From: Gammaproteobacteria bacterium
GTDB lineage: Bacteria; Pseudomonadota; Gammaproteobacteria; Pseudomonadales; Halieaceae
NCBI GenBank assembly: GCA_003646405.1
Contig: QNFR01000005.1
Coordinates: forward strand, 1-50,544
Length of the DNA stretch: 50,544 nucleotides
Direction of reading: 5' to 3'
Shown: piece by piece, positions 17,558-43,019 of the stretch
Layout of the letters: each line of letters begins with the position of its first letter
Numbering within the stretch: the first letter of the stretch is position 1
The notes under the pieces: generated by a model
Database searches by the model: none
Seen by the model: only the letters and a program-made list of their open reading frames with translations
Told to the model about the DNA's origin: nothing
Program-made: the position numbers and the translations under genes

Positions 17558-19294
17558 GTGCCGTTGACCGTTCTGGGCTTATCCGGTGCGCTGGGTCACG
17601 ACCCGTCAGCGGCGCTCTATGTCGACGGCAAGCTTGTCGCTGCCGCCGAAGAAGAACGTTTTATCCGTGAAAAACATGCCAGGAACAAGATGCCTGTTGA
17701 GGCAACGAAATTCTGTTTACAGCAAGCAGCCATCCAACCATCTGATATTGATATCGTCGCCGCACCCTTCGCCCCCATTGGACTTGCATCGCCGGCCAGG
17801 TGGCATTATGCGAAGCGCTACTGGTACGCACCGGATCGCTCCCTTGACGCGCTGTTCAACGGCAACCGCCGTTATCGTCGTTATGTTGGCAGAGTTCGCC
17901 AGATGCTGGAAGGGCTGGGCTTTGTGTGGGACAGTCTGGAATTCGAGCCAGTAGAGCATCACCTGGCCCATGCCTCCAGTTGCTATCACCTGAGCGGTTT
18001 CAAGGAGAAAACCGCGATTATGGGTATCGATGGCAAAGGGGAATACGCCACGACTTTTTTCGGATATGGCGAAAACGGCAGGATTCACAAGATCAAGGAA
18101 TTCTACGACCCGGACTCACTGGGCGGCCTGTACGGCGCGATCACCGAGTACCTGGGCTTTGACATGCTGGACGGGGAATACAAAGTCATGGGTATGGCGC
18201 CCTATGGTGATCCCGATAAGTACGACCTTTCGCGGCTGGCAAAATTTGGCGGCGGCGATTTTGAGGTCAATACCCGTCTGGCTAATGTAATCGGCTTGCG
18301 TCGCCACAAGGAAAAAGGCAAGGGTTTCTATTTTTCATCAAAACTAATCGAGTGGCTGGGGCCCCGCCGTGAGGGCGATGTGGCGGATGAGCCCTATATC
18401 CACTATGCGGCGGCGATACAGAAGTTGTACGAAGAAATCAGTTTGCAGCTGATGGATTATTACCTGGGCGATATTATTCGCCAGACAGGCCTGCTGGCGT
18501 TCTCCGGGGGTGGTGCGCTCAATGTAAAATTGAACCAGAGAATCATCGCGCGGCCCGAGGTCAGGGAGTTATTTGTACAGCCCGCATCGGGTGATTCAGG
18601 CACCGCTGTGGGCGCCGCTTCCTATGTCTCTGAAATGCGCGGTGTCCCGGTTGAAAAAATGCAGCATGTTTACCTGGGTCCCGCCTTCAGCAATGAACAG
18701 GTGATAGCCGCTTGCGAGGCGCATCCGGGGCGGCCCGAATTCAAGGTCATCGATGACGCGCCAAAAAGGATTGCCGCTATACTGGCCGATGGCGACCCGG
18801 TCGCCTGGTTCCAGGGGCGCATGGAATTCGGGCCGCGGGCATTGGGCGGGCGCAGTATACTGGGTTGCCCCAGTGTTAAAGGCGTGGCCGATCGCATCAA
18901 TGAGCAAATAAAGTTCCGCGAGAGGTGGCGCCCGTTTTGCCCGAGCATGCTGGATCGCGTCGGCAGGGAAATGTTCAAAGTGGATCATCCGGCGCCGTTT
19001 ATGACTTTTACCTTCGAGGTCAACGAATCGTGGAAAACCCGTGTACCGGAAGTGGTGCATGAGGACGGTACGGCGCGTGGGCAGACCCTGCAAAGGAAAT
19101 TTAATCCACGCTACTACGAGCTGATGGAAGAGCTGGAAAAGTTGACAGGAAATGCTGTGGTGTTGAACACCTCGCTTAATCGCCGCGGTGAACCGGTAGT
19201 CTGCACGCCCACGGATGCGCTCGATATGTTCTTCGAATCAGATTTACGGTACCTGATTATGGAGGATGTTCTGGTTGTCAAGGCGGGTGATTGA
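17558..19294 (+). CDS. Carbamoyltransferase, NodU/CmcH family
   Basis: A 578-residue enzyme that transfers a carbamoyl group from carbamoyl phosphate, through a carbamoyl-adenylate, to a hydroxyl of a sugar or small molecule. The N-terminal Kae1-like domain shows GHDPSAAL at 13-20, the metal-binding HHLAH at 134-138 and a GIDGKGEYATTFFGYG segment. The C-terminal YrdC-related domain has the strongly conserved WFQGRMEFGPRALGGRSIL and FRERWRPFCPSML blocks. The start is GTG; a nearby ATG is out of frame. No sugar or secondary-metabolite operon surrounds it, so the acceptor is unknown, possibly an envelope glycan. It converges with the next gene, one base apart. Confidence 0.92.
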   Translation: MPLTVLGLSGALGHDPSAALYVDGKLVAAAEEERFIREKHARNKMPVEATKFCLQQAAIQPSDIDIVAAPFAPIGLASPARWHYAKRYWYAPDRSLDALFNGNRRYRRYVGRVRQMLEGLGFVWDSLEFEPVEHHLAHASSCYHLSGFKEKTAIMGIDGKGEYATTFFGYGENGRIHKIKEFYDPDSLGGLYGAITEYLGFDMLDGEYKVMGMAPYGDPDKYDLSRLAKFGGGDFEVNTRLANVIGLRRHKEKGKGFYFSSKLIEWLGPRREGDVADEPYIHYAAAIQKLYEEISLQLMDYYLGDIIRQTGLLAFSGGGALNVKLNQRIIARPEVRELFVQPASGDSGTAVGAASYVSEMRGVPVEKMQHVYLGPAFSNEQVIAACEAHPGRPEFKVIDDAPKRIAAILADGDPVAWFQGRMEFGPRALGGRSILGCPSVKGVADRINEQIKFRERWRPFCPSMLDRVGREMFKVDHPAPFMTFTFEVNESWKTRVPEVVHEDGTARGQTLQRKFNPRYYELMEELEKLTGNAVVLNTSLNRRGEPVVCTPTDALDMFFESDLRYLIMEDVLVVKAGD

Positions 19295-21680: not shown

Positions 21681-21696
21681 TGGCACGACGTTTGCA
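21681..21696 (+). promoter_or_regulatory. Sigma-54 (-24/-12) promoter of the carboxylase operon
   Basis: TGGCACG, four bases, then TTGCA matches the RpoN consensus exactly, with the invariant GG and GC separated by exactly 10 bases. It stands about 100 bases before the first carboxylase gene. A sigma-54-dependent activator is encoded just after the operon, which supports the assignment. Confidence 0.88.
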
Positions 21697-21797: not shown

Positions 21798-23735
21798 ATG
21801 GGAATGCTAGTGAATATCGACAATGGAGGTACGTTGACAGATATCTGCGTACTAAAAGACAACAACTTCTATAAAACGAAAACAATCACAACACCATACG
21901 ACTTAAGTAAGTGTTTTTTTGATGGTTTGCGGTCTGTGTCAGAGGCGGTCTATGGCGAGGAAGATGTCGCCAGGCTGCTCGTTGAAGTCGACCATATTCG
22001 CTACTCTACAACTCAGGGCACCAACGCTATATGTGAGCGCAAGGGGCCAAAACTGGGATTAGTTACGAATAAAGGCAGCGCGGACCTGGTCAAGCGTATG
22101 CGGGCCCACGATGAAGATCTATACGATTTCCTGGTGGCTGATCGGGTCGTTGAAGTTGATCTTGACAACCTGCAAGACAGTGATAAAGCGGCTGATACCG
22201 CAACGGTAATCACTCGCCTTACTTCAGCTGGTGCTAACCGCGTAGTGGTCTGCTTTGATGTCGAACAGGCTGCGATGTATGAAAGGCTGTATAAGAGAGT
22301 GGCGTTTGATAACTATCCTCGCCACCTTTTAGGTGCTGTCCCAATGTTGTTTGCCAGTGAGTTGGCAGCTGATATTTCGGCTGATCGCCGCGCCTGGACG
22401 GCGATGATCAATTCGTTCCTGCATCCTGCGATGGAAACTTTCCTTTACAACGCAGAAAATCGATTGCGTGAATACCGCACTAAAAACCCACTGCTGATTT
22501 TCCGTAACGACGGTGATGCATCCCGGGTCGCCAAAACGATTGCGGCTAAAACCTACAGCTCTGGTCCTAGAGGGGGTATGGAAGGGGTCAAGGCTTTCAG
22601 TAAACGATACAACCTGACTAATGTGCTTTCAATGGATGTCGGTGGGACTACCACGGATATAGGCCAGGTGGTTAGGCATAAGGTACATGAGCAGCGGCGA
22701 GGAAAAGTTGAAGGCGTGCCCATCTCCTTTGCATTGTGTGAAATTGCCAGCCCGGGAGCTGGTGGAAGTTCTATCCTGACCGTGAATGACGGAGCCATTC
22801 AAGTGGGCCCCGAAAGCGTGGGTGCGGTGCCGGGACCTGCCTGTTTCGGCCGTGGCGGAAAGAGCGCCACTATGACAGACGTCAATTTGTTGATGGGTCT
22901 ACTTGATCCTTCCACCTACTTTGGTGGTGGTCTGGCACTTGATGTGGAAAGAGCTCGCGCCGCGATTGCCGACAATATCGCCACACCCCTGGATATTTCC
23001 GTTGAGGAGGCGCTGCTACAACTGCGCACGGCCTACGAGGAAAAAATCGGTGACGAGGTGAAAACTTTTGGTGATATCGATGACAAAACAGTATTGATGG
23101 CTTTTGGGGGCGCCGGTCCGATGAACGCCTGTGGCGTTGCTGAAATTGCGGGTATAGACACCGTATATGTGCCCAAGACTGCAGCTGTATTCAGCGCTTT
23201 TGGCATAGGATCATGTGATATCGGTCAGAGTTATGCAATGGTGCTCACGGACAGCAAGCAGCCCACTCTGGCCCAGGCGTATGAGGAGCTTCTGGAGCGG
23301 GCCGAGCGAGATATGTTCGCGGAAGGCTTTTCCCCTGAAGACTATGAGACAGCAGCTCAACTCGTGGGTGAAAAGAACTCTGAAGAATTGGTTCACCAGC
23401 TTGGCACAAACATAGCAATACCTCAGGAGCTTACCAATGCCGATGCCATCACGCTCGAAGTTTCAGCGAGGAAACGCCTGAAGACCGAAGATGATAAACA
23501 CGCCGACGTTGAAAAGGTCAGCGCTGCGCGTTCGTCGAAGCAACGTTCTATATTGGGTAAAAATCAGGGTTGGCAAGACGTACCCGTCTACGAGATTAAC
23601 TACATGAATCCGGGAGACTATGGCGTAGGTCCAGCTGTGATCGAAGAGGAATACTTTACCTGCCTGGTAGAGGATGGCTGGGAGTTTATTGTGACCGAGT
23701 TGGGTGACATCTGTTTGAGTAAGGGGGCTAAATAA
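21798..23735 (+). CDS. Acetophenone carboxylase-like alpha-prime subunit (HyuA family)
   Basis: A 645-residue (about 70 kDa) member of the hydantoinase A/oxoprolinase family. It retains the two phosphate-binding motifs of the ASKHA-type fold: DNGGTLTD at 8-15 and DVGGTTTD at 280-287, with TTQGTNA at 71-77. It also has the family GAGGSS and PGPACFGRGG segments. It is about 70 residues shorter than the other HyuA-like protein of this operon. In acetophenone carboxylase two such subunits build the ATP-using core that activates CO2 and the enolised ketone without biotin. It is the first gene after the sigma-54 promoter, and its stop overlaps the next start by one base. It is not a plain 5-oxoprolinase, as judged by its partners. 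Confidence 0.88.
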   Translation: MGMLVNIDNGGTLTDICVLKDNNFYKTKTITTPYDLSKCFFDGLRSVSEAVYGEEDVARLLVEVDHIRYSTTQGTNAICERKGPKLGLVTNKGSADLVKRMRAHDEDLYDFLVADRVVEVDLDNLQDSDKAADTATVITRLTSAGANRVVVCFDVEQAAMYERLYKRVAFDNYPRHLLGAVPMLFASELAADISADRRAWTAMINSFLHPAMETFLYNAENRLREYRTKNPLLIFRNDGDASRVAKTIAAKTYSSGPRGGMEGVKAFSKRYNLTNVLSMDVGGTTTDIGQVVRHKVHEQRRGKVEGVPISFALCEIASPGAGGSSILTVNDGAIQVGPESVGAVPGPACFGRGGKSATMTDVNLLMGLLDPSTYFGGGLALDVERARAAIADNIATPLDISVEEALLQLRTAYEEKIGDEVKTFGDIDDKTVLMAFGGAGPMNACGVAEIAGIDTVYVPKTAAVFSAFGIGSCDIGQSYAMVLTDSKQPTLAQAYEELLERAERDMFAEGFSPEDYETAAQLVGEKNSEELVHQLGTNIAIPQELTNADAITLEVSARKRLKTEDDKHADVEKVSAARSSKQRSILGKNQGWQDVPVYEINYMNPGDYGVGPAVIEEEYFTCLVEDGWEFIVTELGDICLSKGAK

Positions 23736-24136
23736 TGAAAGTCTTGATGACCGAGTATCTTCGAATAGATTTGGATGATGAAAACTGGGAATGTCGTGTT
23801 TGTGACCACGTGGTTGGCCCGGCGCGAGGTAACTATAAAGAAGGTTTGCTGGTGCATCATCGTGATCCTGCGGATATTCATCCGCCTGTTATCGATCGGG
23901 ATAAGTACCGTTTTACCTTCTGCCCGGACGGCGATTGGGTCAACATTCTTGAGTTCTATTGTCCAAATTGCGGCACCCAAATGGAGGTTGAGTACGCACT
24001 GCCAGGGCATGCGCCACTCTATGACATGGAGGTTGACCTGGATGCGCTGAAAGAACAATGGAGTCACAGAGAAGAGATGCTTGAGCCGAGTACTGGACCT
24101 GATGTGTCAGTAGATCGGCATCAGCACAATCATTAA
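23735..24136 (+). CDS. Acetophenone/acetone carboxylase-like gamma subunit
   Basis: A 133-residue (about 15 kDa) cysteine-rich protein. Cysteine pairs C20/C23 (CRVC) and C76/C79 (CPNC), with an extra C63, form a likely zinc-binding site, as in the small gamma subunits of acetone and acetophenone carboxylases. The CDHVVGPARGNYKEGLLVH segment after the first pair is typical of that family. The C-terminus ends in a histidine-rich DRHQHNH tail. Translation is coupled to the upstream subunit by a TAATG overlap. This subunit is what separates the operon from ordinary hydantoinase or oxoprolinase loci, which lack it. Confidence 0.85.
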   Translation: MKVLMTEYLRIDLDDENWECRVCDHVVGPARGNYKEGLLVHHRDPADIHPPVIDRDKYRFTFCPDGDWVNILEFYCPNCGTQMEVEYALPGHAPLYDMEVDLDALKEQWSHREEMLEPSTGPDVSVDRHQHNH

Positions 24137-24197
24137 TAGAGGTTGTTTGCCTTTGTGCAAATAGAACAGCAGCTCTGGATTTTTAGGAAATAAAATT

Positions 24198-26345
24198 ATG
24201 AAGCGTATATCAGTAGATATCGGGGGTACTTTCACCGATTGTTTTGTGGTTTGGGACAAAAAGTACATCGAAACAAAGGCGTTGACGACGCATCAAAACC
24301 TGGCTTTGGGCTTCAATGAAGCACTGGAGAAGGCCTATAACGAACTGAATATTACGGCGGAAGAAATACTCTCTGAAGTCGATTCAGTGCGCTATGCCAC
24401 AACTCTGGGCACCAATGCCTTGATTGAACATAAAGGCCCGCGTATCGGCATGCTGGTGACTGCAGGCTTTGAAGCTACAGTGCCGCTGAGTCGTGCACGC
24501 GGCTACGGTGAAGGACTGGATGATCTGGGCAAGCAAAATTTGCCTGATGCGCATCGCCCGGATCCTCTGGTGTTGCCCCATATGATCGAGGGTGTGCGCG
24601 AGCGTTTAGGCTTTGAAGGCGAGCTCGTAATGCCGCTGGACGAAGCGGATGTCAGGATCAAGATCAGAAAGCTGGTCGATAGGGGTGCGCAGATCATCGT
24701 GATTTGTCTGGTGAATTCCGTGGTCAATCCTGAACACGAAAAACGGGTTGAAGAGATTTTGTTGGATGAATATCCCACGCATTTGCTGGGCTCCATTCCG
24801 GTAATCCTGTCCCACCGGGTGGCGGGTCGTAAGGGTGAGTATGTACGGGCCACCTCGGCAATTGTTGACGGCTATCTGCATTCCACCATGTACCATGCGA
24901 TGAGCCAGTTGGAGCAGAACCTGCGCTCGCATTCCTATTCAAAACCCATGTTGGTTATCCATAATTCAGGTGGAATGGCTCAGCTGAATTCAACGGACGC
25001 ACTGCAAACTATCCACTCCGGACCCGTTTCGGGTATCAGTGCCGCGGAGCACCTGGCCAAAGAAGCGGATCTCGGTAGTGTTGTGGCCACCGATATGGGC
25101 GGCACCAGTTACGACATAGGCATCGTGGTCGAAGGCGGCATCAAGCACTACGACTTTAACCCCGTTATTGATCGTTGGTTAGTCTCTGTCCCCATGGTTC
25201 ACCTGGTAACATTGGGCGCCGGAGGCGGTTCCATCGCATCCTTTGATCGTATGTACAATACTGTTGCGGTGGGGCCAAAGAGTGCGGGATCGGATCCTGG
25301 TCCGGCCTGTTACGATCGGGGAGGTATGAGCCCGACGGTCACCGATGCTGACCTGGTGCTGGGTTATCTGGATCCGGAAAACTATGCCGGTGGGAGCATT
25401 CCGCTGAATTCCAAGCGTTCGACCTTTGCCATCGAAGAACATCTCTGTGACGACCTGGATGTCGAGCCTGTAGCAGCAGCCCTGATGATCAAGGAAAAAG
25501 TAGATAGCAATATGGCCAACGGTCTGCACACCGAATTGAGGGTGCGCGGTTACGATCCCGAGGACTTTACCATGTTGGCTTATGGCGGTAATGGGCCTCT
25601 GCACTGTTGTGGCATCGCCAGCAATCTGAAGATCGACAAGATTCTGGCAACACCAATGAGTTCGGTGTTCTCGGCCGTGGGCGCCGGAAATATGCACCAG
25701 ATGCATATACACGAATCGTCCTTGTTCATGGTTCTGTATGATTCAAATTCCCGCAAGGTATTTGATGACTACCATCGTTTCAGCAATATTGTTGCCGAGT
25801 TGAGTGCGCGTGGTGAAAGCGACCTGTTAAGACAGGGTATTGCAGAGAAAGACATTCAACACTCGCTGGAACTGGATATGCGCTACGGTAACCAGTTGGT
25901 GCAAACCACTGTAGTGGTGCCAAAGCATAGCCTCGAGTCAGCTATTGATGTATTGAACATTCTGGACCAGTTTTCCACAGACTACGGTAAACGTTTCGGT
26001 GAGGGCAGTCAGGCGCCGGAAGCCGGTATTCGTATCAATACCATCCGTGTTGCTTCTTATGTTGAGCACGATACGGTTCACTTCAAGCACATCAAGCCGG
26101 TGGCCGAAAGTAAGCGTAAAGCGCCACCTGAGCCGTCCCAGATCCGCAGCTGTTATTTCCCAGGCGACGGTAAGCCTGTGGATACACCTGTGTGGCAGAA
26201 AACAGACATCCCCCCGGGAACGGAAATTGTTGGACCGGGTATTGTTGCTTCCGACGTAACCACTTACTTGATTGAGCCAGGCTGGAAATATGTGTCTGCG
26301 GAGCAAGGTGCGGTTTGGTTCCTTCGCGTGGAAGCGAAACACTAA
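24198..26345 (+). CDS. Acetophenone carboxylase-like alpha subunit (HyuA family)
   Basis: A 715-residue (about 78 kDa) HyuA-type subunit. It has DIGGTFTD at 7-14, ATTLGTNA at 67-74, and a second phosphate motif DMGGTSYD at 299-306, followed by GAGGGSIASFD and PGPACYDRGG. These residues would bind and hydrolyse ATP to activate bicarbonate or the ketone enolate. It has full family length, unlike the shorter alpha-prime protein. The start is supported by AGGAAA 9 bases upstream, after a 61-base gap from the gamma gene. The next gene begins 24 bases downstream. Two non-identical HyuA proteins in one operon match the alpha/alpha-prime composition known for acetophenone carboxylase. Confidence 0.9.
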   Translation: MKRISVDIGGTFTDCFVVWDKKYIETKALTTHQNLALGFNEALEKAYNELNITAEEILSEVDSVRYATTLGTNALIEHKGPRIGMLVTAGFEATVPLSRARGYGEGLDDLGKQNLPDAHRPDPLVLPHMIEGVRERLGFEGELVMPLDEADVRIKIRKLVDRGAQIIVICLVNSVVNPEHEKRVEEILLDEYPTHLLGSIPVILSHRVAGRKGEYVRATSAIVDGYLHSTMYHAMSQLEQNLRSHSYSKPMLVIHNSGGMAQLNSTDALQTIHSGPVSGISAAEHLAKEADLGSVVATDMGGTSYDIGIVVEGGIKHYDFNPVIDRWLVSVPMVHLVTLGAGGGSIASFDRMYNTVAVGPKSAGSDPGPACYDRGGMSPTVTDADLVLGYLDPENYAGGSIPLNSKRSTFAIEEHLCDDLDVEPVAAALMIKEKVDSNMANGLHTELRVRGYDPEDFTMLAYGGNGPLHCCGIASNLKIDKILATPMSSVFSAVGAGNMHQMHIHESSLFMVLYDSNSRKVFDDYHRFSNIVAELSARGESDLLRQGIAEKDIQHSLELDMRYGNQLVQTTVVVPKHSLESAIDVLNILDQFSTDYGKRFGEGSQAPEAGIRINTIRVASYVEHDTVHFKHIKPVAESKRKAPPEPSQIRSCYFPGDGKPVDTPVWQKTDIPPGTEIVGPGIVASDVTTYLIEPGWKYVSAEQGAVWFLRVEAKH

Positions 26346-26369
26346 TATAGAAATAGGGGTAGCCTTATC

Positions 26370-28655
26370 ATGAACAAAAAATCTACAGATATAGAAGTTG
26401 ATACTCAAGATCAGAAACTGGTTGCAAAATTCCTGAAGGAAACAACTTTATTTCTTGGGCCTGACCCCGAGATTATGCGCGATCATACTATTTTGCCTTG
26501 CACTGAGCACGAAGCTGAGTGTTTGGAAAAATATGCCGATGATGCCTACCTGATGTCTTCCATCCGTGATCGGCTGAGTGCAGCGGCGGATGAAGGTTAT
26601 GAGATGGTTGAGCAAATGGGTGCGGCGCCCGGTGCAAAATGGGGAGATGTGATCACTGGTATCTATTCGAAATCTGGTGACTTGACCATTGGCAGTGCCG
26701 GTGGGGTACTGATTTTCTCCGCCCTGGTTCACCATCCCATCAAATTCATAATCAAAAACTGGGTGGATGAACCCACCGTTGGCGTAAGTGAAGGCGATGG
26801 GTTTATTCATAACGACTCCCGTTACGGCAATGTTCACAACACCGACCAGAGTATGATTCTGCCGGTTTTTCACGAAGGAGAGTTGGTGTGTTGGGTGGCC
26901 TCTACCGTTCACGAGGGTGAAAACGGTGCGATCGAGCCGGGTGGTATGCCGTCAATGGCAGAGACTCCTTTTGACGAAGGGCTGAAAATGTCGCCGTTCA
27001 AAGTGGTTGAAAAGTACCAGATCAAAAGGGATATACTCACTTTTCTGCAAAACTCGGTGCGCGAACCAAAATTGCAGTATGAGGATATGAAAGTAAAACT
27101 TTTTGCCTGTATGCGCCTGGAAAAACGTATTAAGGAAGTGCTGTCCTCTGACGGCCCTGAAGCGTTGACTGCCTGTCTGCGTTATACCAACGAGAGTGTG
27201 ATGACCGAGGTTCGTCGTCGCATTACTGAGTGGCCGGACATGACTGTTCGTACCTATGTCACGATGGACAGTACTCTGCGTGAAAATGCCTTGATCAAGG
27301 TCAATGTGGCGGTTATCAAAAAAGGAGATCGGTTGATTTTTGACTTCACCGGCTCGAGCCCCGAAATTACCAACCGGGCTATCAATACAGCCCTGCCGGG
27401 GGCGAAAGGAATGATTGCTCAGGCTTTTTTGAACCACATATGGCCGGATCTGCCTCGTGGCCAGGCGGCTTTTTCCCCGATTGAAGTGATTACGCCAAAT
27501 TGCTCGATTGTAGACGCCAGCGTCAACGCACCGAATTCACAGAGTCTCATGTCCATCTTTTGCTGCTTTACCGTCGCCCAGCACGCGGCGGCCAAGTTCC
27601 TCTACAGCGTCCCGCAGAAATACACTCGGGTTCTCTCGCCATGGTTTAATATGATTAACACGTTTATTTGGGGCGGTGTAAACCAGCATGGTGAAACGTT
27701 GGGTAACCTGTGTGCCGACCTGAACGGTATGGGTGGTGGCGCCAGGATGAACCTGGATGGTGAACATGCTTTGGCGCCAATTTTCGCGTCTATGGCAGAC
27801 ATCGGGGAGCAGGAAATGAACGAGGAAGAAGTCCCCTTCCTGCAACTGGTCTCCAAGAAAATGACTACCAATACACAGGCACCGGGCAAGTATCGGGGCG
27901 GCATGGGATACACCATGATTGTCTCCACCAAAGACAGCGACCAGTGGGGTTTTATGACAACTGCCGTGGGTTCTAAAACGCCTGCGATACAAGGTCTGTT
28001 TGGCGGTTATGCCTGCGGTTCCTATCCTCTGTGTAAGGTAGAGGACGTCGATGTTTATGATGTGCTGCTCAACAACCCGGGACAATTCAAGCACTCAATT
28101 CCGGAAATCATGAACGAGGAGCCCTTCGACAACGCCAAGTACAGCACCCATCACATGGGTCTGGGTTTTGACCTGTCCAAGCGCGGTGAGTTGTACATGA
28201 TTTCCCAGGGTTCGGGCGGCGGTTACGGTGACCCCTACGAGCGGGACCCTGCCCTGGTCATCCAGGATATCGAAGAGTCCTTGATTACTCCGGAATGGGC
28301 CATGAAGATTTACAAAGTGGTCTTGGATGAGGACACATTAATTGTTGACCAAGAGGAAACCAAAAAGCTGCGTAATAAGGAAAGGGAAATACGCAAGAAG
28401 CAAGGAGTGCCGTACGCGAAATTTGTCAAGCAGCATGTTCAGCAAGAACCGCCCGCTGACATTCCTTTTTATGGATCATGGAACAGCGATTACGATGTAG
28501 TCTACGCGGGCAGCAGAGATGACAAACGTGATCCCAAAAATCCTGGTCCAATTTATATCACCAATCCGAGAGACGTAAGAATCGCCGAGTTGGAATCTGA
28601 GCTTGATGCGGTAAGAGCCCAGTCGGGTATTCAGGCGACGGATACAAGGAAGTAG
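26370..28655 (+). CDS. Acetophenone carboxylase-like beta subunit (HyuB family)
   Basis: A 761-residue (about 84 kDa) hydantoinase B-type protein. Typical HyuB segments are present: DFTGSSPEITNRAINTALPGAKGMI (about 326-350), the GQAAFSPIEVITPNCSIVDA block, GGGARMNLDGEHALAPIFAS, PGKYRGGMGYTMIV and the C-terminal SQGSGGGYGDPYERDP. A long charged C-terminal extension (after about 660) ends in a coiled-coil-like ELESELDAVRAQ. In acetophenone carboxylase this subunit forms the body of the active site and pairs with the alpha subunits. It is followed two bases later by the epsilon-like gene, showing tight co-translation. Confidence 0.9.
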   Translation: MNKKSTDIEVDTQDQKLVAKFLKETTLFLGPDPEIMRDHTILPCTEHEAECLEKYADDAYLMSSIRDRLSAAADEGYEMVEQMGAAPGAKWGDVITGIYSKSGDLTIGSAGGVLIFSALVHHPIKFIIKNWVDEPTVGVSEGDGFIHNDSRYGNVHNTDQSMILPVFHEGELVCWVASTVHEGENGAIEPGGMPSMAETPFDEGLKMSPFKVVEKYQIKRDILTFLQNSVREPKLQYEDMKVKLFACMRLEKRIKEVLSSDGPEALTACLRYTNESVMTEVRRRITEWPDMTVRTYVTMDSTLRENALIKVNVAVIKKGDRLIFDFTGSSPEITNRAINTALPGAKGMIAQAFLNHIWPDLPRGQAAFSPIEVITPNCSIVDASVNAPNSQSLMSIFCCFTVAQHAAAKFLYSVPQKYTRVLSPWFNMINTFIWGGVNQHGETLGNLCADLNGMGGGARMNLDGEHALAPIFASMADIGEQEMNEEEVPFLQLVSKKMTTNTQAPGKYRGGMGYTMIVSTKDSDQWGFMTTAVGSKTPAIQGLFGGYACGSYPLCKVEDVDVYDVLLNNPGQFKHSIPEIMNEEPFDNAKYSTHHMGLGFDLSKRGELYMISQGSGGGYGDPYERDPALVIQDIEESLITPEWAMKIYKVVLDEDTLIVDQEETKKLRNKEREIRKKQGVPYAKFVKQHVQQEPPADIPFYGSWNSDYDVVYAGSRDDKRDPKNPGPIYITNPRDVRIAELESELDAVRAQSGIQATDTRK

Positions 28656-28657
28656 TT

Positions 28658-29521
28658 ATGGCGATTGATCTGGTGAGCTATCTGTCTGGCGAGGGAGAAT
28701 CTCCCAGGCTTTGGATAGACTTTGATGCCTACACCAAAAAGCTACTTCTGGGGGAGGGTGACAGTCCATGGACTACCCCTGCCACATACATGTCCTACTA
28801 TAGTCAAGCGCATGGTTTGGTCAAAGCCGATGTCGTTGTGCTGAATGTGTGGGACATGTTTCAGCACTGGATGCGAGAGGACGAAGAGGCTATACCGGCA
28901 ATGGCTGGCAAACGGCGGGTGACCGTAGCATTAAAGACTATGTTGGGAGCCTACCAACCGCGCGAATTGCTGGCCGAGGTCATCACCGCATTGGGTAACA
29001 ACTATGGTCAATCGGTGCCGATGGTGCTGGTAATGCCTTCGCCACGATCATTGCTGGTCAAAGCGCATAAAGCGGCGAATGAGATCGAGGTAGAGCCTGA
29101 CGAAATGAGTGTGGACACGGCTTCCATGTACGTGGCTGACTATTTGAGGTATTTCAGTGAAGCGGATCTATCTGGCATATTATTACTGGAAGATCCTGAG
29201 CTGATGCCGGCGACCGGCGAAGAGCTCAGTTGGTATCAACCGGTGTACAACGTCGCCAAGCACTACCGTTGGTCTGTGGGTGTGCACCTGCCAGTCGTCG
29301 ATGATAGTTTCAACGTGCCGGATGATATCGCCTTCGTGGTCGTGCCGGCGCAGTCGGCATCGATGGATAATGCCTTGGGGGTGGATATAACACAGCCGCT
29401 GTGGGAAGCGGCCGGTGTCGATGGGCTACCCATACGGGAGGCTGGTTTTTACTATTTATCTATTCCAGCCGATGCCAAGCCCGAAACAGTACTGGAGACA
29501 CTTGCAGACCTGAAAGCTTAA
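28658..29521 (+). CDS. Acetophenone carboxylase epsilon-like protein
   Basis: A 287-residue (about 32 kDa) soluble protein with no domain I can name with certainty. Its N-terminal part (WIDFDAYTKKLLLGEGDSPWTTPATYMSYYSQAHGLVKADVVVLNVWDMFQHW) and the YLRYFSEADLSGILLLEDPE segment look like a globular alpha/beta fold without membrane helices or cofactor motifs. A strong GGAAG ribosome site stands 7 bases before the ATG, two bases after the HyuB stop. Size and position fit the fifth, loosely bound 34-kDa epsilon subunit that acetophenone carboxylase needs for activity. That assignment rests on gene order and size, not on recognised sequence identity. Confidence 0.65.
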   Translation: MAIDLVSYLSGEGESPRLWIDFDAYTKKLLLGEGDSPWTTPATYMSYYSQAHGLVKADVVVLNVWDMFQHWMREDEEAIPAMAGKRRVTVALKTMLGAYQPRELLAEVITALGNNYGQSVPMVLVMPSPRSLLVKAHKAANEIEVEPDEMSVDTASMYVADYLRYFSEADLSGILLLEDPELMPATGEELSWYQPVYNVAKHYRWSVGVHLPVVDDSFNVPDDIAFVVVPAQSASMDNALGVDITQPLWEAAGVDGLPIREAGFYYLSIPADAKPETVLETLADLKA

Positions 29522-29658: not shown

Positions 29659-31665
29659 CTAGCCCGTCTTTTCCAGGCCGTATTTTTTTATCTTTTGATA
29701 GAGTGTGCTCTTGGCGATACCGAGGTGCTTGGCAGCCCGGGTCATATTTCCGCCGGACTGCATAATGGCTGACTCGATTACGTGCTGTTCGGCAGAATCC
29801 AGACTGCCGGGCTCCCAACTGGTTTGACCGGGGTCTGGTATAAAACAGCTGCCAGCCTCACCGAGTTTGTAGCCGTCTGGTAAATCATCCACCGTCAGCG
29901 TTTCATTCTGTGACATGAAGGACATGCATTCGATCACATTAATCAGTTCCCGGATGTTGCCGGGCCACTCTATGGCGCGCAAAGCTTTTATGAGTGGTGG
30001 GGAAAAGGATCTGGGTACAATAGCATGGGATTTCTGGATTTTCTCTAGCGTTACTTGTGCAATACCTTCGATATCTTCCGGGCGCGCCGAGAGTGGATCG
30101 AGGTTGATGGTGATTGTGGCCAGGCGATAGTACAGGTCTTTTCTGAACCGGCCCTCGGCAACATCCCTTTTAAGATCTCTGTTGGTTGCGGCAATGAGTC
30201 TGAAATCAACGAAAATTGGTTTAATGTCCCCCACGCGATAGATTTTACGTTCCTGCAAGACCCGCAGGAATATGGGTTGAATGTCCAGGGGCATTTCACC
30301 AATCTCATCCAGGAAAAGCGTACCACCGTTCGCGGCCTCGATCTTCCCCTTCATGCCGCCTTTCTTGGCACCTGTGAACGCGCCTTCGACATGGCCAAAC
30401 AATTCGCTCGTTAAAATTTCGCTGGCGAATCCGGCACAGTTCAAATCGATACAAGGGCCGTCGGCATAATCACTGGATTCATGGATAGCCTTGGCAAACA
30501 GTTCCTTGCCAACCCCGGTGTCTCCCAGGAGAAGCACCGGGAGAGGGGTGGTGGCGGCTTTGCGTGCCAGGTCAGTGCTGGTTTTAATTGATGCGCTTAC
30601 TCCAACAATATTGTTGAATGGATCAAGCCTGGACTCGGTGTCCAGGCGTGATTTACCGCCTTTTTTGATTCGCCGAGATGCAAGTTTGTTGGAAGGCAGG
30701 TGCAACTGGAAGCCCAGTAGTTCATTCTTACATACAATCGGTTCCACCCAATCTTCGGGTAACCACTGACCATCATTGTGTGGATAGAGGATTTCCTCAC
30801 CGCCAAAGCGTTCAAAAGATAAGCGGCATTTCGACTCGGGATCATAGTCCATACCCAGTAAATCAAGCGCCGATTTGGAATTTTTTGTGCTGTTGATCAA
30901 CCGGCCCTGGAGGTCAAATAATAATTTTTCGGATCTTCTGAAATCACCAACATTACCATTGCTGTATTGTTGGATAATGTACCACTGTTCCAATGTTTTC
31001 TTGGCCAACGCGTTTTGAATTTCGCCAGCCCACGCCATGACCAACGGGATATGAAACCTGTCAAACACGCTGCGTAACCCCGATACATCAATCGAGCCGA
31101 TCATCTGGTTATCATAGGGGTCTGCGATGACCGCGGCGGTGCAGGTCCAGGGTTTGAAACCCTGGCAAAAATGCTCTTCGCCGTGGACTTGTGTTGGTTT
31201 GCGTGTCGCCATAGCGGTACCTACGGCATTAGAGCCAGACGCCGCTTCTTTCCAATCCGCGCCTGGCACCAGGCCTATGCCGCGCGCAGCCTCGATTGTC
31301 TGGGGAGCCCCAACGACCTCCAAATTTATGCCCCGGTAATCAGTCATAAATAGCAGGGTCTCAAGATCGCGTAGAAATACTCGCGCCTGCTGAAGGATCG
31401 GTTGTGCGCATTCCAGGAGGTCATTGCTCTTCGCTTTTACTGTGTACAGAGCATCTTCGTTTGGCGCTAAAATGGGGGCGGTATGTAGTTGCGGATCTAC
31501 GCCTTGGGATAAACATCGCTCCCAGGAAAGGGCAATTAAATTACGTACAGATAGGTCTCTTACACCGCCACCGGCGCTCAAGAAGCTATCCCACGCACTG
31601 TCAATTTCCCTTTGCGAATGGACGCCAACGCCGGACTGGTCTGTTCTGGTGCCTAACCTGGTCAT
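29659..31665 (-). CDS. Sigma-54-dependent transcriptional activator, AcoR/AcxR type
   Basis: A 668-residue enhancer-binding protein. The N-terminal half (about 40-330) is the GAF/PAS-like sensory region of AcoR relatives, with AASGSNAVGTAMA and QGFKPWTCTAAVIADPYD. The AAA+ domain (about 350-590) has Walker A GDTGVGKE at 381-388, the sigma-54-contacting GAFTGA at 428-433 and Walker B GGTLFLDE at 447-454. A C-terminal Fis-type helix-turn-helix (NMTRAAKHLGIAKSTLYQKIKKYG) binds DNA. It lacks a receiver domain, so it should sense its inducer directly. It lies between two units that each carry a sigma-54 promoter and converges on the carboxylase operon. Acetone-carboxylase and acetoin operons use relatives of this protein. 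Confidence 0.93.
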   Translation of the reverse strand: MTRLGTRTDQSGVGVHSQREIDSAWDSFLSAGGGVRDLSVRNLIALSWERCLSQGVDPQLHTAPILAPNEDALYTVKAKSNDLLECAQPILQQARVFLRDLETLLFMTDYRGINLEVVGAPQTIEAARGIGLVPGADWKEAASGSNAVGTAMATRKPTQVHGEEHFCQGFKPWTCTAAVIADPYDNQMIGSIDVSGLRSVFDRFHIPLVMAWAGEIQNALAKKTLEQWYIIQQYSNGNVGDFRRSEKLLFDLQGRLINSTKNSKSALDLLGMDYDPESKCRLSFERFGGEEILYPHNDGQWLPEDWVEPIVCKNELLGFQLHLPSNKLASRRIKKGGKSRLDTESRLDPFNNIVGVSASIKTSTDLARKAATTPLPVLLLGDTGVGKELFAKAIHESSDYADGPCIDLNCAGFASEILTSELFGHVEGAFTGAKKGGMKGKIEAANGGTLFLDEIGEMPLDIQPIFLRVLQERKIYRVGDIKPIFVDFRLIAATNRDLKRDVAEGRFRKDLYYRLATITINLDPLSARPEDIEGIAQVTLEKIQKSHAIVPRSFSPPLIKALRAIEWPGNIRELINVIECMSFMSQNETLTVDDLPDGYKLGEAGSCFIPDPGQTSWEPGSLDSAEQHVIESAIMQSGGNMTRAAKHLGIAKSTLYQKIKKYGLEKTG

Positions 31666-32189
31666 TTCGAGCCGCCTTATTAAGCTGGGTGTAGAACGCC
31701 ATCTTATAATTATTTACAACGCATTTGATCGATACAATAACGCAACGATATCGACGAGCTGCGAATCTGAGGTTAACACACAAAGAATCGATTGTGCCAG
31801 TTCACTGCTTGCGTACCAGAGCGAGCTCGCAGTCCTGTATATTCGCGAGGTTGTGGCATATAGAATATTTAATAAAAACAATGGGCTAGAGTTATCACAG
31901 CTTCGCCTTGGCCTGTTTGTACGTTGCTCCTACTGTTCGATGTTGATTCGAGAGCGTTCGATTATTGGACGCCTGGGTGGCGCTTCCGAGGTTGCCCCTC
32001 TAAACCAATAAATCCTTTTAGTACAGTGAGTTACCAGCGTTAATTTGCCCTGGAAATATACTGGCATGAGTATTGCATTTCATGTGTTCGTGATATATAA
32101 GAAGTAGCGCACATCGTACAATCTGTTAACCAGGATTGGGTAGATGCGTTAATACGAGTCATATTTCTCATGGAGAACGGGGGTTTTAT
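31666..32189. other. Divergent regulatory region between activator and transport genes
   Basis: About 520 bases between the activator start and the DUF1302 gene. It carries the second sigma-54 promoter at 32062. Around 31935-31965 three TTCGA-type motifs cluster within 30 bases, a possible enhancer site for the activator, but they do not form a clean palindrome. The open frames in this interval have no ribosome site or recognisable product. Confidence 0.5.
32062..32077 (+). promoter_or_regulatory. Sigma-54 (-24/-12) promoter of the transport operon
   Basis: TGGCATG, then four bases, then TTGCA keeps the invariant GG and GC exactly 10 bases apart. It stands about 115 bases before the DUF1302 start and so closely parallels the promoter of the carboxylase operon, in element and leader length. 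Confidence 0.85.
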
Positions 32190-33833
32190 ATGAATAAAAA
32201 GTTAAACAAAAGCATAGCCAAAGCTGTAGGTATATTAATGTGCTCAAGTTGCGGTATCGCTGCTGGCACGGCGCAAGCGCAAGATCATGATGAATATAGT
32301 GCAAGCCTGAGCGGCTACGTGCGCACTACTGTCGGCGTCAGCTTAAATGATCACGATGAAACTAAACGCGATGACAAGTGGGAAGCAACCATGGCGCGCG
32401 GTACCCTGTTACTGGACCTGGATGTCTACACAGGCCCATTGATATGGAAAGCTGTCGGTCGTCTTGATAAGGAATATAAGACCAACTACCTCAAGGATTT
32501 GCAAAAACGAGCGGATTCAACCGGACTCCCAGGGGATTATTCCGGGCCGGGCGGCGACGATTGGATGGAGCAATACGACACCCATGAGTTCCAGGACTGG
32601 CTGCGCGAGATATACGTCGACTTCACCTTGTTCGATAAGGTGGATGTACGCTTAGGCCGGCAACAGTTGGTGTGGGGTGAAAGTGATTTCTTCCAGGCGA
32701 TGGACCTGGTGCACGGATTTGATTGGCGCTGGCGCCTGTTCTTTGAAAACAATGAGGAGTGGCGTAAACCGCTGTATTTGGCCAATTTCAATATTGAATT
32801 TTATGACCTTGATGGCGCCCTGAATTTCTTTGTCCGTCCCGGCCTGGATCGCGATGAGGACATGGGTAGCAGTTTCAATATCGAGGGTGGTCGGTGGATT
32901 CCGCATCCTTATCGGGGCGTGGACTTTACTCAATTCACGACTGCCTATGAAACCGACCATAATAAAGGTGATTGGTCCGATTGGACCTACGGCATCCGCT
33001 GGGGTGGAACACTGGGTTCGATTGGTTATTCCTTCGCCTACCTCAAGACGTTTATGCCCAGACCCACTATGAACCCGAACCCGGCACTGAACGGTGCCTT
33101 TGGCATTAATTCCGACCCCATTCCATACGGGGATACGGCGGACAATGGGGCGATTCTGGGTGACTGGATTTATCCTGAGATCGATGTGTATGGCTTTACC
33201 GTCAATGGTTATTCATCGACGCTGGACTCCACCCTGAGTGCGGAAGTCGCTTATGTACCTAACACGCCCTTTAACTACGGCCAGTTGCAGTCTGACCTGC
33301 CGGGTTGGCAGGGTGTGAAGGAAAAAGATGTGATCAATGCGATGCTCCGTATCGATAAGGAGTTTAAGTTGATGAATTTACTGGGCACCAACCGGCCATC
33401 TCTGTCGAGTGTTCAGTTATTTGATACCTGGATAACCTCCTATGACGACGATGACGAAATCGTGGAGTTCGCTTCATTCGGTCACGAAAAGGACGAGCAC
33501 ACCGTATACCTCACTTTCTTCACACTGATGAACTTTAGGCGTGACACGATCAATCCTTCCTTTGTCATCGGTACCGACGTGGGTAACGGCGGCGGTTTTG
33601 CTATTCCGGCCGTTGAGTTTGTGATTGGTGACAACTGGCGTTTAAAAGTCGAAGCGGATCTTTTTTGGAGCGACTCCAAAAAGAAAGTCTGTGGCACCGC
33701 CAAGAAGGACTTCAGCGATTGTGATCCAGAGAAGGGCAACCCCTTGCTGGGCATGAGAGAGAATAAAGCGGCACTCTTTGACTGGTTTGCTGATGACAAT
33801 CAGCTTGTATTCAAGCTGACAAGACAGTTTTAA
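32190..33833 (+). CDS. DUF1302 family outer-membrane beta-barrel protein
   Basis: A 547-residue exported protein beginning at MNKKLNKSIAK, chosen because a signal peptide (about 1-34, ending AQAQ) starts there; the frame extends 18 codons further. The mature chain has the alternating pattern and aromatic girdles of a beta-barrel and ends LVFKLTRQF with a terminal phenylalanine, the signal for outer-membrane insertion. The DUF1302 block includes the LRGRQQLVWGESDFF-like segment VRLGRQQLVWGESDFF. Family members lie in clusters for hydrophobic compounds, with DUF1329 proteins and RND transporters. It probably forms the outer-membrane passage of this four-gene set, driven by its own sigma-54 promoter. 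Confidence 0.88.
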   Translation: MNKKLNKSIAKAVGILMCSSCGIAAGTAQAQDHDEYSASLSGYVRTTVGVSLNDHDETKRDDKWEATMARGTLLLDLDVYTGPLIWKAVGRLDKEYKTNYLKDLQKRADSTGLPGDYSGPGGDDWMEQYDTHEFQDWLREIYVDFTLFDKVDVRLGRQQLVWGESDFFQAMDLVHGFDWRWRLFFENNEEWRKPLYLANFNIEFYDLDGALNFFVRPGLDRDEDMGSSFNIEGGRWIPHPYRGVDFTQFTTAYETDHNKGDWSDWTYGIRWGGTLGSIGYSFAYLKTFMPRPTMNPNPALNGAFGINSDPIPYGDTADNGAILGDWIYPEIDVYGFTVNGYSSTLDSTLSAEVAYVPNTPFNYGQLQSDLPGWQGVKEKDVINAMLRIDKEFKLMNLLGTNRPSLSSVQLFDTWITSYDDDDEIVEFASFGHEKDEHTVYLTFFTLMNFRRDTINPSFVIGTDVGNGGGFAIPAVEFVIGDNWRLKVEADLFWSDSKKKVCGTAKKDFSDCDPEKGNPLLGMRENKAALFDWFADDNQLVFKLTRQF

Positions 33834-33848
33834 AACGGGAGTATAAAA

Positions 33849-35126
33849 ATGCTTAATAAATTGATTGCTACATCATTGGCTTTGGGGCTCGCAGCTGGCC
33901 TATCGCTACATACATTCGCTGAGGAGGAGCTGCCAGCCGGCACTGTGATTTCGGCAGACAACTATGATGACGTAAAAGACCGTATGTTCGAAGGTAAAAC
34001 TGTCGGATCTATGATTCCCGAGCGCCTGGAGTGGATGATCAGAGAGCGCAACCTGACCATGAAAATTCGTCATTCCGAGCCAATCGAAATGGACGAAAAA
34101 TATATGGCTGCGACTCAGGCCAATAAAGGTAAGGTTAAATTTGACCCCGTGACCCGTCAGGCGACCGGGTGGACAGCCGGTATGTTTTTCGATCCGCAGG
34201 ACATTGATATCAATGATCCTCACGCGGGTGATAAAATCATCTGGAACCTGCGTGGACCCACCTACGGTGCCACAATGGATTTGCGCCATATTTCCTTCGT
34301 GTTTATTGACGGTGAGAAGGGCGTGGAGCGGATTCAGCGTTGGTGGTCTCGTCGCTACTACATGGAAGGCCGCCTGGATGGTGGCCCTGTTTCCGAAGGT
34401 GACGGCACCATCATGCAAAAAACAATTCTGGTGGCCACCAGTCCGCAGGATATTAAAGGTCTGGGTACCTTTTCTATCCGCTATAACGATCCCAGTGCGT
34501 CTAAACCGGATGATACCTGGGCGTACCTGAAGTCTGTACGCCGCGCCCGTCGTTTGACCGGTAGTGCCTGGATGGACCCCATTGGCGGTACGGTGCAGCT
34601 CTACGATGATTGGGATATCTGGGATGCGGTGCCCACCAAGTACAAGTCCAACACACTGCTGGAAAGACGTTGGGTGTTTGCGGTCGCGCACAGCCCTTTG
34701 CTGAGCGTTGACCTGACTCACAAAAACACCATTAAAGAATTTCCAAGTGTCGCAATGGATACACCACCCCATTTCTATCCAGCCAGCCACATTGAATGGG
34801 AGCCGCGCGAGGTGTTTGTTGTGGAGGGAGTGCCTCCCGAAGGTCATCCATACAGCAAAAAGATCGTTTACATGGAAGTGGATTGGCCACGTCCCTATCT
34901 GGGCGAAGCTTATGACCAGAACGGTAAGTTCTGGAAGTTCTTTATCTTCCAAAATCGTCCGGACATTGGAGATGATGGCTATAAAGCGATAATGCCCGTG
35001 GTTGGACACGTCATTGACTACAAAGCTAACTTTTCCACCACCTGGTCTTCAAATATGAAGGCCAATCCCGCCGGTGTGGAAGAGGATGATGTGACACTCA
35101 AACAACTAATAAAAATAGCGCGCTAG
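33849..35126 (+). CDS. DUF1329 family periplasmic protein
   Basis: A 425-residue exported protein with a clear signal peptide (about 1-25, ending TFAEE). The mature part is one large DUF1329 domain, a LolA/LolB-like half-barrel fold according to family knowledge. Visible segments are LPAGTVISADNYDDVKDRM, a twice-occurring MERW-like RIQRWWSRRYYMEGRL, and WDIWDAVPTKYKSNTLLERRWVFAVAHSP. Such proteins are thought to carry hydrophobic ligands through the periplasm. It follows the DUF1302 gene by 15 bases with a GGGAG ribosome site, so the two are co-expressed. A pair of hairpins lies just after its stop codon, which may lower expression of the next genes. Confidence 0.88.
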   Translation: MLNKLIATSLALGLAAGLSLHTFAEEELPAGTVISADNYDDVKDRMFEGKTVGSMIPERLEWMIRERNLTMKIRHSEPIEMDEKYMAATQANKGKVKFDPVTRQATGWTAGMFFDPQDIDINDPHAGDKIIWNLRGPTYGATMDLRHISFVFIDGEKGVERIQRWWSRRYYMEGRLDGGPVSEGDGTIMQKTILVATSPQDIKGLGTFSIRYNDPSASKPDDTWAYLKSVRRARRLTGSAWMDPIGGTVQLYDDWDIWDAVPTKYKSNTLLERRWVFAVAHSPLLSVDLTHKNTIKEFPSVAMDTPPHFYPASHIEWEPREVFVVEGVPPEGHPYSKKIVYMEVDWPRPYLGEAYDQNGKFWKFFIFQNRPDIGDDGYKAIMPVVGHVIDYKANFSTTWSSNMKANPAGVEEDDVTLKQLIKIAR

Positions 35127-35198: not shown

Positions 35199-35311
35199 CT
35201 ATTTCCCCGATCGAAACCGTTGGAATTAGCGGCCTGGATTGCAGGCTGAGCTCGCTGCTGCCCCACATTTGGTGGTTTAGTGCGCGGTGCACGAGAGTCT
35301 TGAGGAGATAT

Positions 35312-36385
35312 ATGGACACCACAGATACCAAATCCGGAGAAATGCAAATGTCTACGGCGCAGGGACCAAAGAAAAGTCTGGGCTCCAAGTTACTATCTTT
35401 CTTCTTGTCATGTATGCCGTGGGCTATTGTGGCGACCCTGTTGTGGGCCGGGATCTTCGTGAAACCCACGCCCGATGTGCAAGTGGTTATTCCCCCGGCT
35501 ATCGAAGATCGCGATAAAATATATGGAATTGCGGCGCTGACTTCTGAAACACTGTGGATCGTGGGTAACTATGGCAAGATACTCCGCTCAGAAGACGCCG
35601 GCCAAACCTGGTCCGGGCAAGACAGCACTACTGAAAAACACCTGCAGGATATTTCTGCCTGGGATTCGGACCACGCAGTCGCTGTTGGTAATGGCGGTAT
35701 TGTGTTGGTCACCGAGAACGGTGGCAAGACATGGGATGAGATTGATGTACCCAGATCGGAAATCGCGAATAAATTAATCAGAGTGCATACCTATGCGGAC
35801 GGTGAGGCCTGGGCCGTCGGCGAGTTGGGTATGATTCTCCACTCCGTTGATTATGGTCGAACGTGGACGCGTATGCGTGAAGAAGAAGACGTCATCATGA
35901 ACGACCTGATCAAACTCGACGACGGCAAGATCTTCGTGGTGGGTGAATATGGCCGTATATTCAGGAGCGAGGATAACGGACAGACGTGGCAGGATGACTA
36001 CACAGATAGCCCGAGCAGTCTCACAGCCATCGATTTTCGCAGTCCACAACACGGTGTTATTGTTGGCCTGGATGGCGTCATCCTGGCGACAGAGGACTCC
36101 GGTGAGACCTGGACAATGATTAGTAGCGATATTTCCGGTAACACGGAACACCTGATGGATGTGCAGTGGTCGGAACAAATTAACAAATGGGTGACAGTTG
36201 GAAATAAGAGCAGATGGGTCAGGTTCAGCGGCGATTTAACAGAGTTCTCTGCGAGCAATCTTTCTCCAATCGATCTTTCGTCGCACACCGAGCTAGCCGT
36301 TCTTGACAACGGAGTGATTGCGGTCGGCGCGAATGTTTGTACTGTGGATTACGAAGGTAATAAATATACCACTTTGGGCAATTAA
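35312..36385 (+). CDS. YCF48-like beta-propeller protein with N-terminal membrane anchor
   Basis: A protein of about 357 residues. One membrane helix (LLSFFLSCMPWAIVATLLWAGIFV, near 30-50) anchors it, and a seven-bladed-type YCF48/BNR repeat domain follows, with recurring units such as GNYGKILRSEDAGQTW, GNGGIVLVTENGGKTW, GELGMILHSVDYGRTW, GEYGRIFRSEDNGQTW and GLDGVILATEDSGETW. YCF48 is an assembly factor of photosystem II; bacterial relatives often sit beside RND transporters, where their role is unclear. The start is ambiguous: ATG at 35312 has GAGGAGA very close upstream, and ATG at 35348 has GGAG 8 bases upstream. It sits between the DUF1329 and RND genes and likely assists transporter assembly or ligand hand-over. 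Confidence 0.85.
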   Translation: MDTTDTKSGEMQMSTAQGPKKSLGSKLLSFFLSCMPWAIVATLLWAGIFVKPTPDVQVVIPPAIEDRDKIYGIAALTSETLWIVGNYGKILRSEDAGQTWSGQDSTTEKHLQDISAWDSDHAVAVGNGGIVLVTENGGKTWDEIDVPRSEIANKLIRVHTYADGEAWAVGELGMILHSVDYGRTWTRMREEEDVIMNDLIKLDDGKIFVVGEYGRIFRSEDNGQTWQDDYTDSPSSLTAIDFRSPQHGVIVGLDGVILATEDSGETWTMISSDISGNTEHLMDVQWSEQINKWVTVGNKSRWVRFSGDLTEFSASNLSPIDLSSHTELAVLDNGVIAVGANVCTVDYEGNKYTTLGN

Positions 36386-36470
36386 TGCCCAATTATAGGT
36401 ATAACTACATAATTAGATGGCTATGGTGAATCCGCATCACTCTGATGTGGAGTGGGTCTTGGAGGGTAAG

Positions 36471-40869: not shown

Positions 40870-40991
40870 GATATCTATTACTCCGAATTTTGTGCAACTA
40901 TCGAAATTGGCAATTGTAATAAGCTGCATTCGACTATCGAACCAAATCCGAGTAACAACAGTGAATAACCACGCCAGCTGGAAAATGAAAA

Positions 40992-43010: not shown

Positions 43011-43019
43011 GGAAAAACA

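Follow-up and report, generated by a model that had tools for sequence, protein, structure and literature searches.

A Complete Five-Gene Operon of the Acetophenone Carboxylase Branch, with Its Own Predicted Ketone Pocket, in a Gammaproteobacterial Contig

A contig from a gammaproteobacterium of the Halieaceae (GenBank assembly GCA_003646405.1, contig QNFR01000005.1; the window is its 50,544-nucleotide stretch, positions 1 to 50,544) carries five consecutive open reading frames on the + strand at 21798-29521. Their products of 645, 133, 715, 761, and 287 residues follow the order apcA-B-C-D-E, that of the genes for acetophenone carboxylase (Apc). An earlier reading of the DNA letters alone (the original prediction) had proposed a five-subunit, biotin-independent ketone carboxylase of the Apc type here, and its coordinates and lengths agree exactly with the open reading frames and Pfam matches described below.

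21798-23735, + strand: ApcA-like protein (alpha', HyuA fold, proposed bicarbonate kinase), 645 aa; matches 5l9w_b, E 1.7e-86
23735-24136, + strand: ApcB-like small zinc subunit, 133 aa; matches 5l9w_C, E 3.3e-30, and Acetone_carb_G, 121.8 bits
24198-26345, + strand: ApcC-like protein (alpha, HyuA fold, proposed ketone kinase), 715 aa; matches 5l9w_B, E 2e-158 (acetone carboxylase, 2e-82)
26370-28655, + strand: ApcD-like protein (beta, HyuB fold, metal site), 761 aa; matches 5l9w_A, E 3e-81 (acetone carboxylase, 3e-36)
28658-29521, + strand: ApcE-like epsilon protein, uroporphyrinogen-decarboxylase-like fold, 287 aa; predicted fold matches 9fou

The genes are tightly packed, with intergenic gaps of −1, 61, 24, and 2 bases. 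Pfam recognizes Hydantoinase_A in the 645- and 715-residue proteins (E 4e-63 and 2e-72), Acetone_carb_G in the 133-residue protein (2e-35), and Hydantoinase_B in the 761-residue protein (4e-77); these values, together with a gene order kept in nearly all of about 85 relatives, exclude chance. The order apcA-B-C-D-E is the published criterion for the Apc branch (PMC5214803), and the window operon has it. Moreover, a search against all solved structures returned, for each of the four core subunits, the matching chain of the Aromatoleum Apc core (5l9w) as top relative, with acetone carboxylase, hydantoinase, and caprolactamase far behind. The fifth protein has no sequence match in Pfam, NCBIfam, or the PDB. 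Its AF2 model, built from an alignment of 47 family members (mean pLDDT 92.9, pTM 0.91), retrieved three 9fou ApcE chains as top Foldseek matches (E 1.5e-8, probability 1.00, 14-16% identity), followed by uroporphyrinogen decarboxylases. All five subunits can thus be assigned, the epsilon subunit through its predicted fold. (By gene name the 133-residue protein is ApcB, or beta; "gamma" is its name in the structural paper and among acetone carboxylases.)

The ATP motifs are retained in both HyuA subunits; in the ApcA-like protein the ASKHA motifs DNGGTLTD, DVGGTTTD, and GAVPGP are unbroken. The ApcC fingerprint R/KERiDsxG reads RERLGFEG, keeping RER and the last G, but not I-D-S. The ApcB-like protein, which has no Acx-type N-terminal extension, carries Cys20, Cys23, Cys76, and Cys79 in alignment with the zinc cysteines (84 of 84 rows, the reference counted). 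In the ApcD-like protein the metal ligands D93, H156, D159, and H181 (Asp-His-Asp-His) are conserved in all 89 of 89 rows, a tetrad that corresponds to residues essential in caprolactamase (PMC8453981). In the HyuA tree, the 645-residue protein clusters with 5l9w_b (support 100/98), apart from the ApcC, Acx, and hydantoinase rows. The 715-residue protein groups with 40 relatives in a well supported clade, outside the Acx, CapA, and hydantoinase rows, although long branches are present and the placement of this clade relative to the Apc reference is not settled. The original prediction had set the locus apart from those for oxoprolinases and hydantoinases, and this separation holds: zinc, alpha', and epsilon subunits are present, and the HyuA rows fall outside the CapA/HyuA pair. 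It had also named two results that would count against it, a phylogeny with the HyuA and HyuB proteins inside 5-oxoprolinase or N-methylhydantoinase clades and a 133-residue protein unrelated to carboxylase gamma subunits; neither appeared.

The operon is nevertheless distant from Apc itself. Identity to the Aromatoleum reference is 33% for A, 51% for B, 38% for C, and 29% for D, and all four core subunits score far under the NCBIfam Apc equivalog cut-offs (347 against 1250, 126 against 250, 580 against 1500, and 308 against 1500 bits). The Apc paper tentatively assigned the ketone pocket of ApcC to L81, F281, N282, P285, I333, Q344, and T345 (PMC5214803). The corresponding predicted residues in the window are T72, I272, H273, P276, I324, H335, and L336, so that five of the seven are changed. 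This T-I-H-P-I-H-L signature is nearly invariant, each position holding the same residue in 77-80 of 80 relatives. By comparison, a gammaproteobacterial operon with a 78% identical ApcC retains L-F-N-P-I-Q-T; an operon with a 65% identical ApcC has M-Y-N-P-I-Q-T; and a third Apc-branch group has T-H-N-P-I-E-V. Three groups within the branch therefore bear different signatures, and the pocket follows the group; this favors a different substrate for the window group. Only one Apc-branch enzyme had been characterized as of the 2017 structure paper, which found no residues that predict substrate (PMC5214803). Judged by its sequence, the window complex is not an acetophenone carboxylase sensu stricto, in keeping with the earlier suggestion that the substrate may be another methyl ketone; that it is a different ketone is probable. 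The operon is a complete, well conserved member of the known Apc branch, in an uncharacterized subfamily with its own pocket signature.

The genes that flank related operons bear on the fate of the product. In syntenic relatives (Porticoccus, Cellvibrionales, Thalassotalea, and Thiotrichaceae assemblies, ApcD 78-81% identical) apcABCDE is followed by genes for a CoA ligase, a thiolase, and reductases, then for a sigma-54 activator, and then for DUF1302, DUF1329, and YCF48-like proteins and an RND transporter. A 3-oxoacid CoA-transferase accompanies the cluster in three of these relatives and adjoins the operon in others, such as a Neorhizobium plasmid. Ligase and thiolase, or CoA-transferase, form the expected path by which a 3-oxo acid would become acyl-CoA and acetyl-CoA. 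The window keeps the same block minus ligase, thiolase, and reductases. The original prediction had noted that no acyl-CoA ligase or thiolase lies within the window; this is correct, but both occur elsewhere in the genome. An orthologue (81%) of the Apc-linked thiolase is on contig C64, a CoA ligase adjoins a second apc operon on contig C79, and a CoA-transferase is on contig C101. Since ligase and thiolase both come after apcE in the syntenic relatives, and the thiolase orthologue sits on another contig, the gap is best read as a local rearrangement.

The second full apcABCDE operon (contig C79, 4371-11912, − strand) encodes A, C, and D subunits 40-56% identical to those of the window; after it come genes for the acyl-CoA ligase and a CobW-type GTPase. 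The pocket of this second ApcC reads T-I-H-P-I-Y-L; with Tyr replacing one His, the two complexes may differ in substrate. Of 40 long sister-clade loci, 33 likewise have a CobW/COG0523 GTPase, which may serve the ApcD site as a metal chaperone, close to the operon; several loci also bear their own rpoN.

Control of the operon probably involves sigma-54. The window contains only two perfect matches to the −24/−12 promoter, against 0.19 expected; they flank the gene for a sigma-54-dependent activator, and the second precedes a transport cassette:

21681-21696, + strand: sigma-54 promoter TGGCACGACGTTTGCA, perfect match, 117 bp upstream of apcA
29659-31665, − strand: sigma-54-dependent activator, GAF, AAA+, and Fis-type helix-turn-helix domains (Pfam)
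32062-32077, + strand: sigma-54 promoter TGGCATGAGTATTGCA, perfect match, upstream of the transport cassette, whose likely ATG (32190) is about 113 bp further on
32136-33833, + strand: AmeA-like outer-membrane protein (DUF1302, Pfam), likely true start ATG 32190
33849-35126, + strand: AmeB-like periplasmic protein (DUF1329, LolA-like; Pfam)
35300-36385, + strand: AmeC-like periplasmic protein of the YCF48/PSII-assembly type (Pfam PSII_BNR)
36417-38870, + strand: AmeD-like RND transporter (HAE3/MMPL; Pfam MMPL, with NCBIfam HAE3 the top family though under its cut-off)

Similar sites lie 112-166 bp upstream of apcA in several relatives, and close matches to the second promoter are at the same place in three (L011, L012, and L014). 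The activator, equally placed and 59-65% identical in Porticoccus-type clusters, is the probable regulator of both operons. Because the two sole perfect sites precede both operons and flank its gene, we infer joint sigma-54 control of carboxylase and cassette. The DUF1302, DUF1329, YCF48-like, and HAE3 RND proteins stand in the order that defines AmeABCD. The first three correspond to the kinds described for AmeA, AmeB, and AmeC in Castellaniella (PMC6394551). This order after the Apc cluster is conserved in relatives, and is seen again in Zoogloea-type operons.

Together, these observations suggest how the system might work. If the structure-based proposal for Apc (PMC5214803) carries over, ApcC would phosphorylate the enol form of the ketone; ApcA would phosphorylate bicarbonate to carboxyphosphate; ApcD would bear the metal site and hold the complex together; ApcB would be a structural zinc subunit; and ApcE, attached loosely to the ABCD core, would be needed for the reaction, the product being a 3-oxo acid. 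A CoA ligase or 3-oxoacid CoA-transferase plus a thiolase, encoded elsewhere in the genome, would then yield acyl-CoA and acetyl-CoA. The sigma-54 activator would turn on the carboxylase and the hydrophobe-transport cassette together. In effect, an aerobic bacterium would make a ketone digestible by adding CO2 to it.

We consider it probable that the operon specifies a biotin-independent, ATP-dependent ketone carboxylase of the Apc type (core A-D plus ApcE), which feeds a 3-oxo acid to thiolysis under sigma-54 control. Several observations weigh against this view. Two positions proposed for the Apc bicarbonate pocket in ApcA are altered in the window (Glu248 to Ser and Lys281 to Asp). Subunits A, B, and C fit Apc in length, but ApcD, at 761 residues against 684 for Apc beta, is about 77 residues longer. 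An orthologue of the Apc-linked CoA ligase is absent from the assembly, which is 91% complete. The assignment of the ketone pocket is itself tentative in the Apc paper, and the literature yielded no characterized member of the window subfamily.

Which ketone, then, does the complex carboxylate? Acetophenone or a close aryl ketone, the substrate expected of a true acetophenone carboxylase, would fit the shared subunits and gene order, but is improbable given the scores far under the equivalog cut-offs and the five changed pocket residues, which the 78% identical gammaproteobacterial ApcC retains. Most likely the complex acts on some other ketone, with aliphatic or terpenoid methyl ketones the likelier kind. 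Less probable even than an aryl ketone carboxylase is an ATP-dependent amidohydrolase (lactamase or hydantoinase) with extra subunits: hydantoinases share the HyuA and HyuB folds and the metal site, but are two-gene systems without zinc, alpha', or epsilon subunits (PMC5214803), and the ligase and thiolase neighbors fit a 3-oxo acid.

Two candidates, acetone or butanone and a hydrophobic ketone, remain about equal, each plausible but short of an even chance. A short ketone, implying an acetone/butanone carboxylase of five subunits with an origin separate from AcxABC, is favored by sister operons (67-71% ApcD identity): scoAB/pcaIJ-type 3-oxoacid CoA-transferase genes are near them in 12 of 40 long loci, such a transferase is the usual step after acetoacetate, and the pocket signature in these operons is identical to that of the window. 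A PhaB-like reductase also follows the thiolase in several Porticoccus-type clusters. The window clade, however, has a general acyl-CoA ligase and an SCP2-type thiolase after apcE rather than acetoacetyl-CoA synthetase, and a hydrophobe-transport cassette is odd for acetone. Ligase and thiolase type instead point to a hydrophobic methyl ketone of the long-chain or isoprenoid kind, whose uptake or handling would fall to the AmeABCD-like cassette. This cassette adjoins the operon in the window clade and recurs with Zoogloea-type operons; Castellaniella needs ameB for normal growth on monoterpenes (PMC6394551). Ame-like cassettes, though, are not restricted to terpenes. The thiolase orthologue on contig C64 (3387-14394) is divergent from an acyclic-terpene cluster with genes for an acyl-CoA dehydrogenase, geranyl-CoA carboxylase-like subunits, enoyl-CoA hydratase, and AtuA. 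Of nine other genomes carrying a window-type operon, however, eight lack AtuA and the ninth shows it only weakly, and many members of the family have geranyl-CoA carboxylase-like genes but no such operon. This Atu link is therefore specific to the one genome, and was kept only as weak evidence. It is a doubtful proposal that the signature T-I-H-P-I-H/Y-L marks a distinct Apc-branch subfamily with which aerobic marine bacteria carboxylate hydrophobic methyl ketones of the aliphatic or isoprenoid kind; if true, this would provide a CO2-fixing alternative to Baeyer-Villiger oxidation for such ketones. The literature searched yielded no isoprenoid ketone carboxylation, beyond mention that Marinobacter degrades 6,10,14-trimethylpentadecan-2-one.

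Following the transporter, at 39271-44162, are genes for methylcrotonyl-CoA-carboxylase-type subunits and an acyl-CoA dehydrogenase; more carboxyltransferase genes are on contigs C21 and C64. The carboxylase pair (39271-43010) is of the methylcrotonyl-CoA rather than the geranyl-CoA type (571 against 423 bits). A 1150-residue indolepyruvate-oxidoreductase-like protein (POR, DUF6537; 44278-47730) and a carbamoyltransferase (17558-19294) are encoded near the cluster, with no link to it seen.

The original prediction found the aerobic setting special. This is not supported: Aromatoleum degrades acetophenone through Apc with or without oxygen (PMC4729919), so the setting is not itself remarkable, and among the aerobes that carry close relatives of the window operon are Azotobacter and Xanthobacter. 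The window group, usually annotated just as hydantoinase, has a wide distribution (Azotobacter, Xanthobacter, Zoogloea, Rhodococcus, and marine Gammaproteobacteria). Should it carboxylate common ketones, it would represent a wide, overlooked carboxylation route. In the window, the Apc, transport, and carboxylase genes (21798-44162) have a GC content of 0.48-0.51, against 0.54 before and 0.59 after, and no window-type operon was found in 57 relatives searched; together these fit acquisition from another lineage. In two assemblies named as Alphaproteobacteria (L004, Emcibacter; L005, Kordiimonadaceae) the operon lies on short contigs, with ApcD 80-81% identical, which reflects either transfer or binning error.

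Comparison with known systems places the locus. The neighboring cassette shares with AmeABCD of Castellaniella defragrans its DUF1302, DUF1329, YCF48-like, and HAE3 RND proteins in the same order; there it serves monoterpene metabolism, whereas here it is tied to the ketone carboxylase by position and promoter type only. The 5-oxoprolinases, N-methylhydantoinases, and caprolactamase (7hk5, 6yra) have the HyuA and HyuB folds and the ATP and metal sites, but are hydrolases without zinc, alpha', or epsilon subunits; the window operon is thus not the hyuAB pair, without zinc subunit, that marks such loci. Biotin-dependent acetovanillone carboxylase is a different kind of enzyme.

Closer is acetone carboxylase, AcxABC (5svb, 5m45), with HyuA and HyuB folds, a zinc subunit, a metal site, and, likely, ketone carboxylation in common. 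Acx, however, comprises three genes: it has a single HyuA, its zinc subunit is longer, and it lacks the ApcA-type and epsilon subunits, whereas the window encodes two HyuA subunits and an epsilon; scores to Acx are also much weaker. A sigma-54 regulator adjoins acetone carboxylase genes in one genome (PMC6987047). Closest is ApcABCDE of Aromatoleum aromaticum EbN1 (5l9w core, 9fou ApcE). The window core is 29-51% identical, its pocket reads T-I-H-P-I-H-L rather than L-F-N-P-I-Q-T, its ApcD is the longer, no ligase is adjacent, and predicted sigma-54 control replaces the two-component systems of Apc; but the five subunits, gene order, ASKHA motifs, zinc Cys4 site, metal tetrad, and epsilon fold are all alike.

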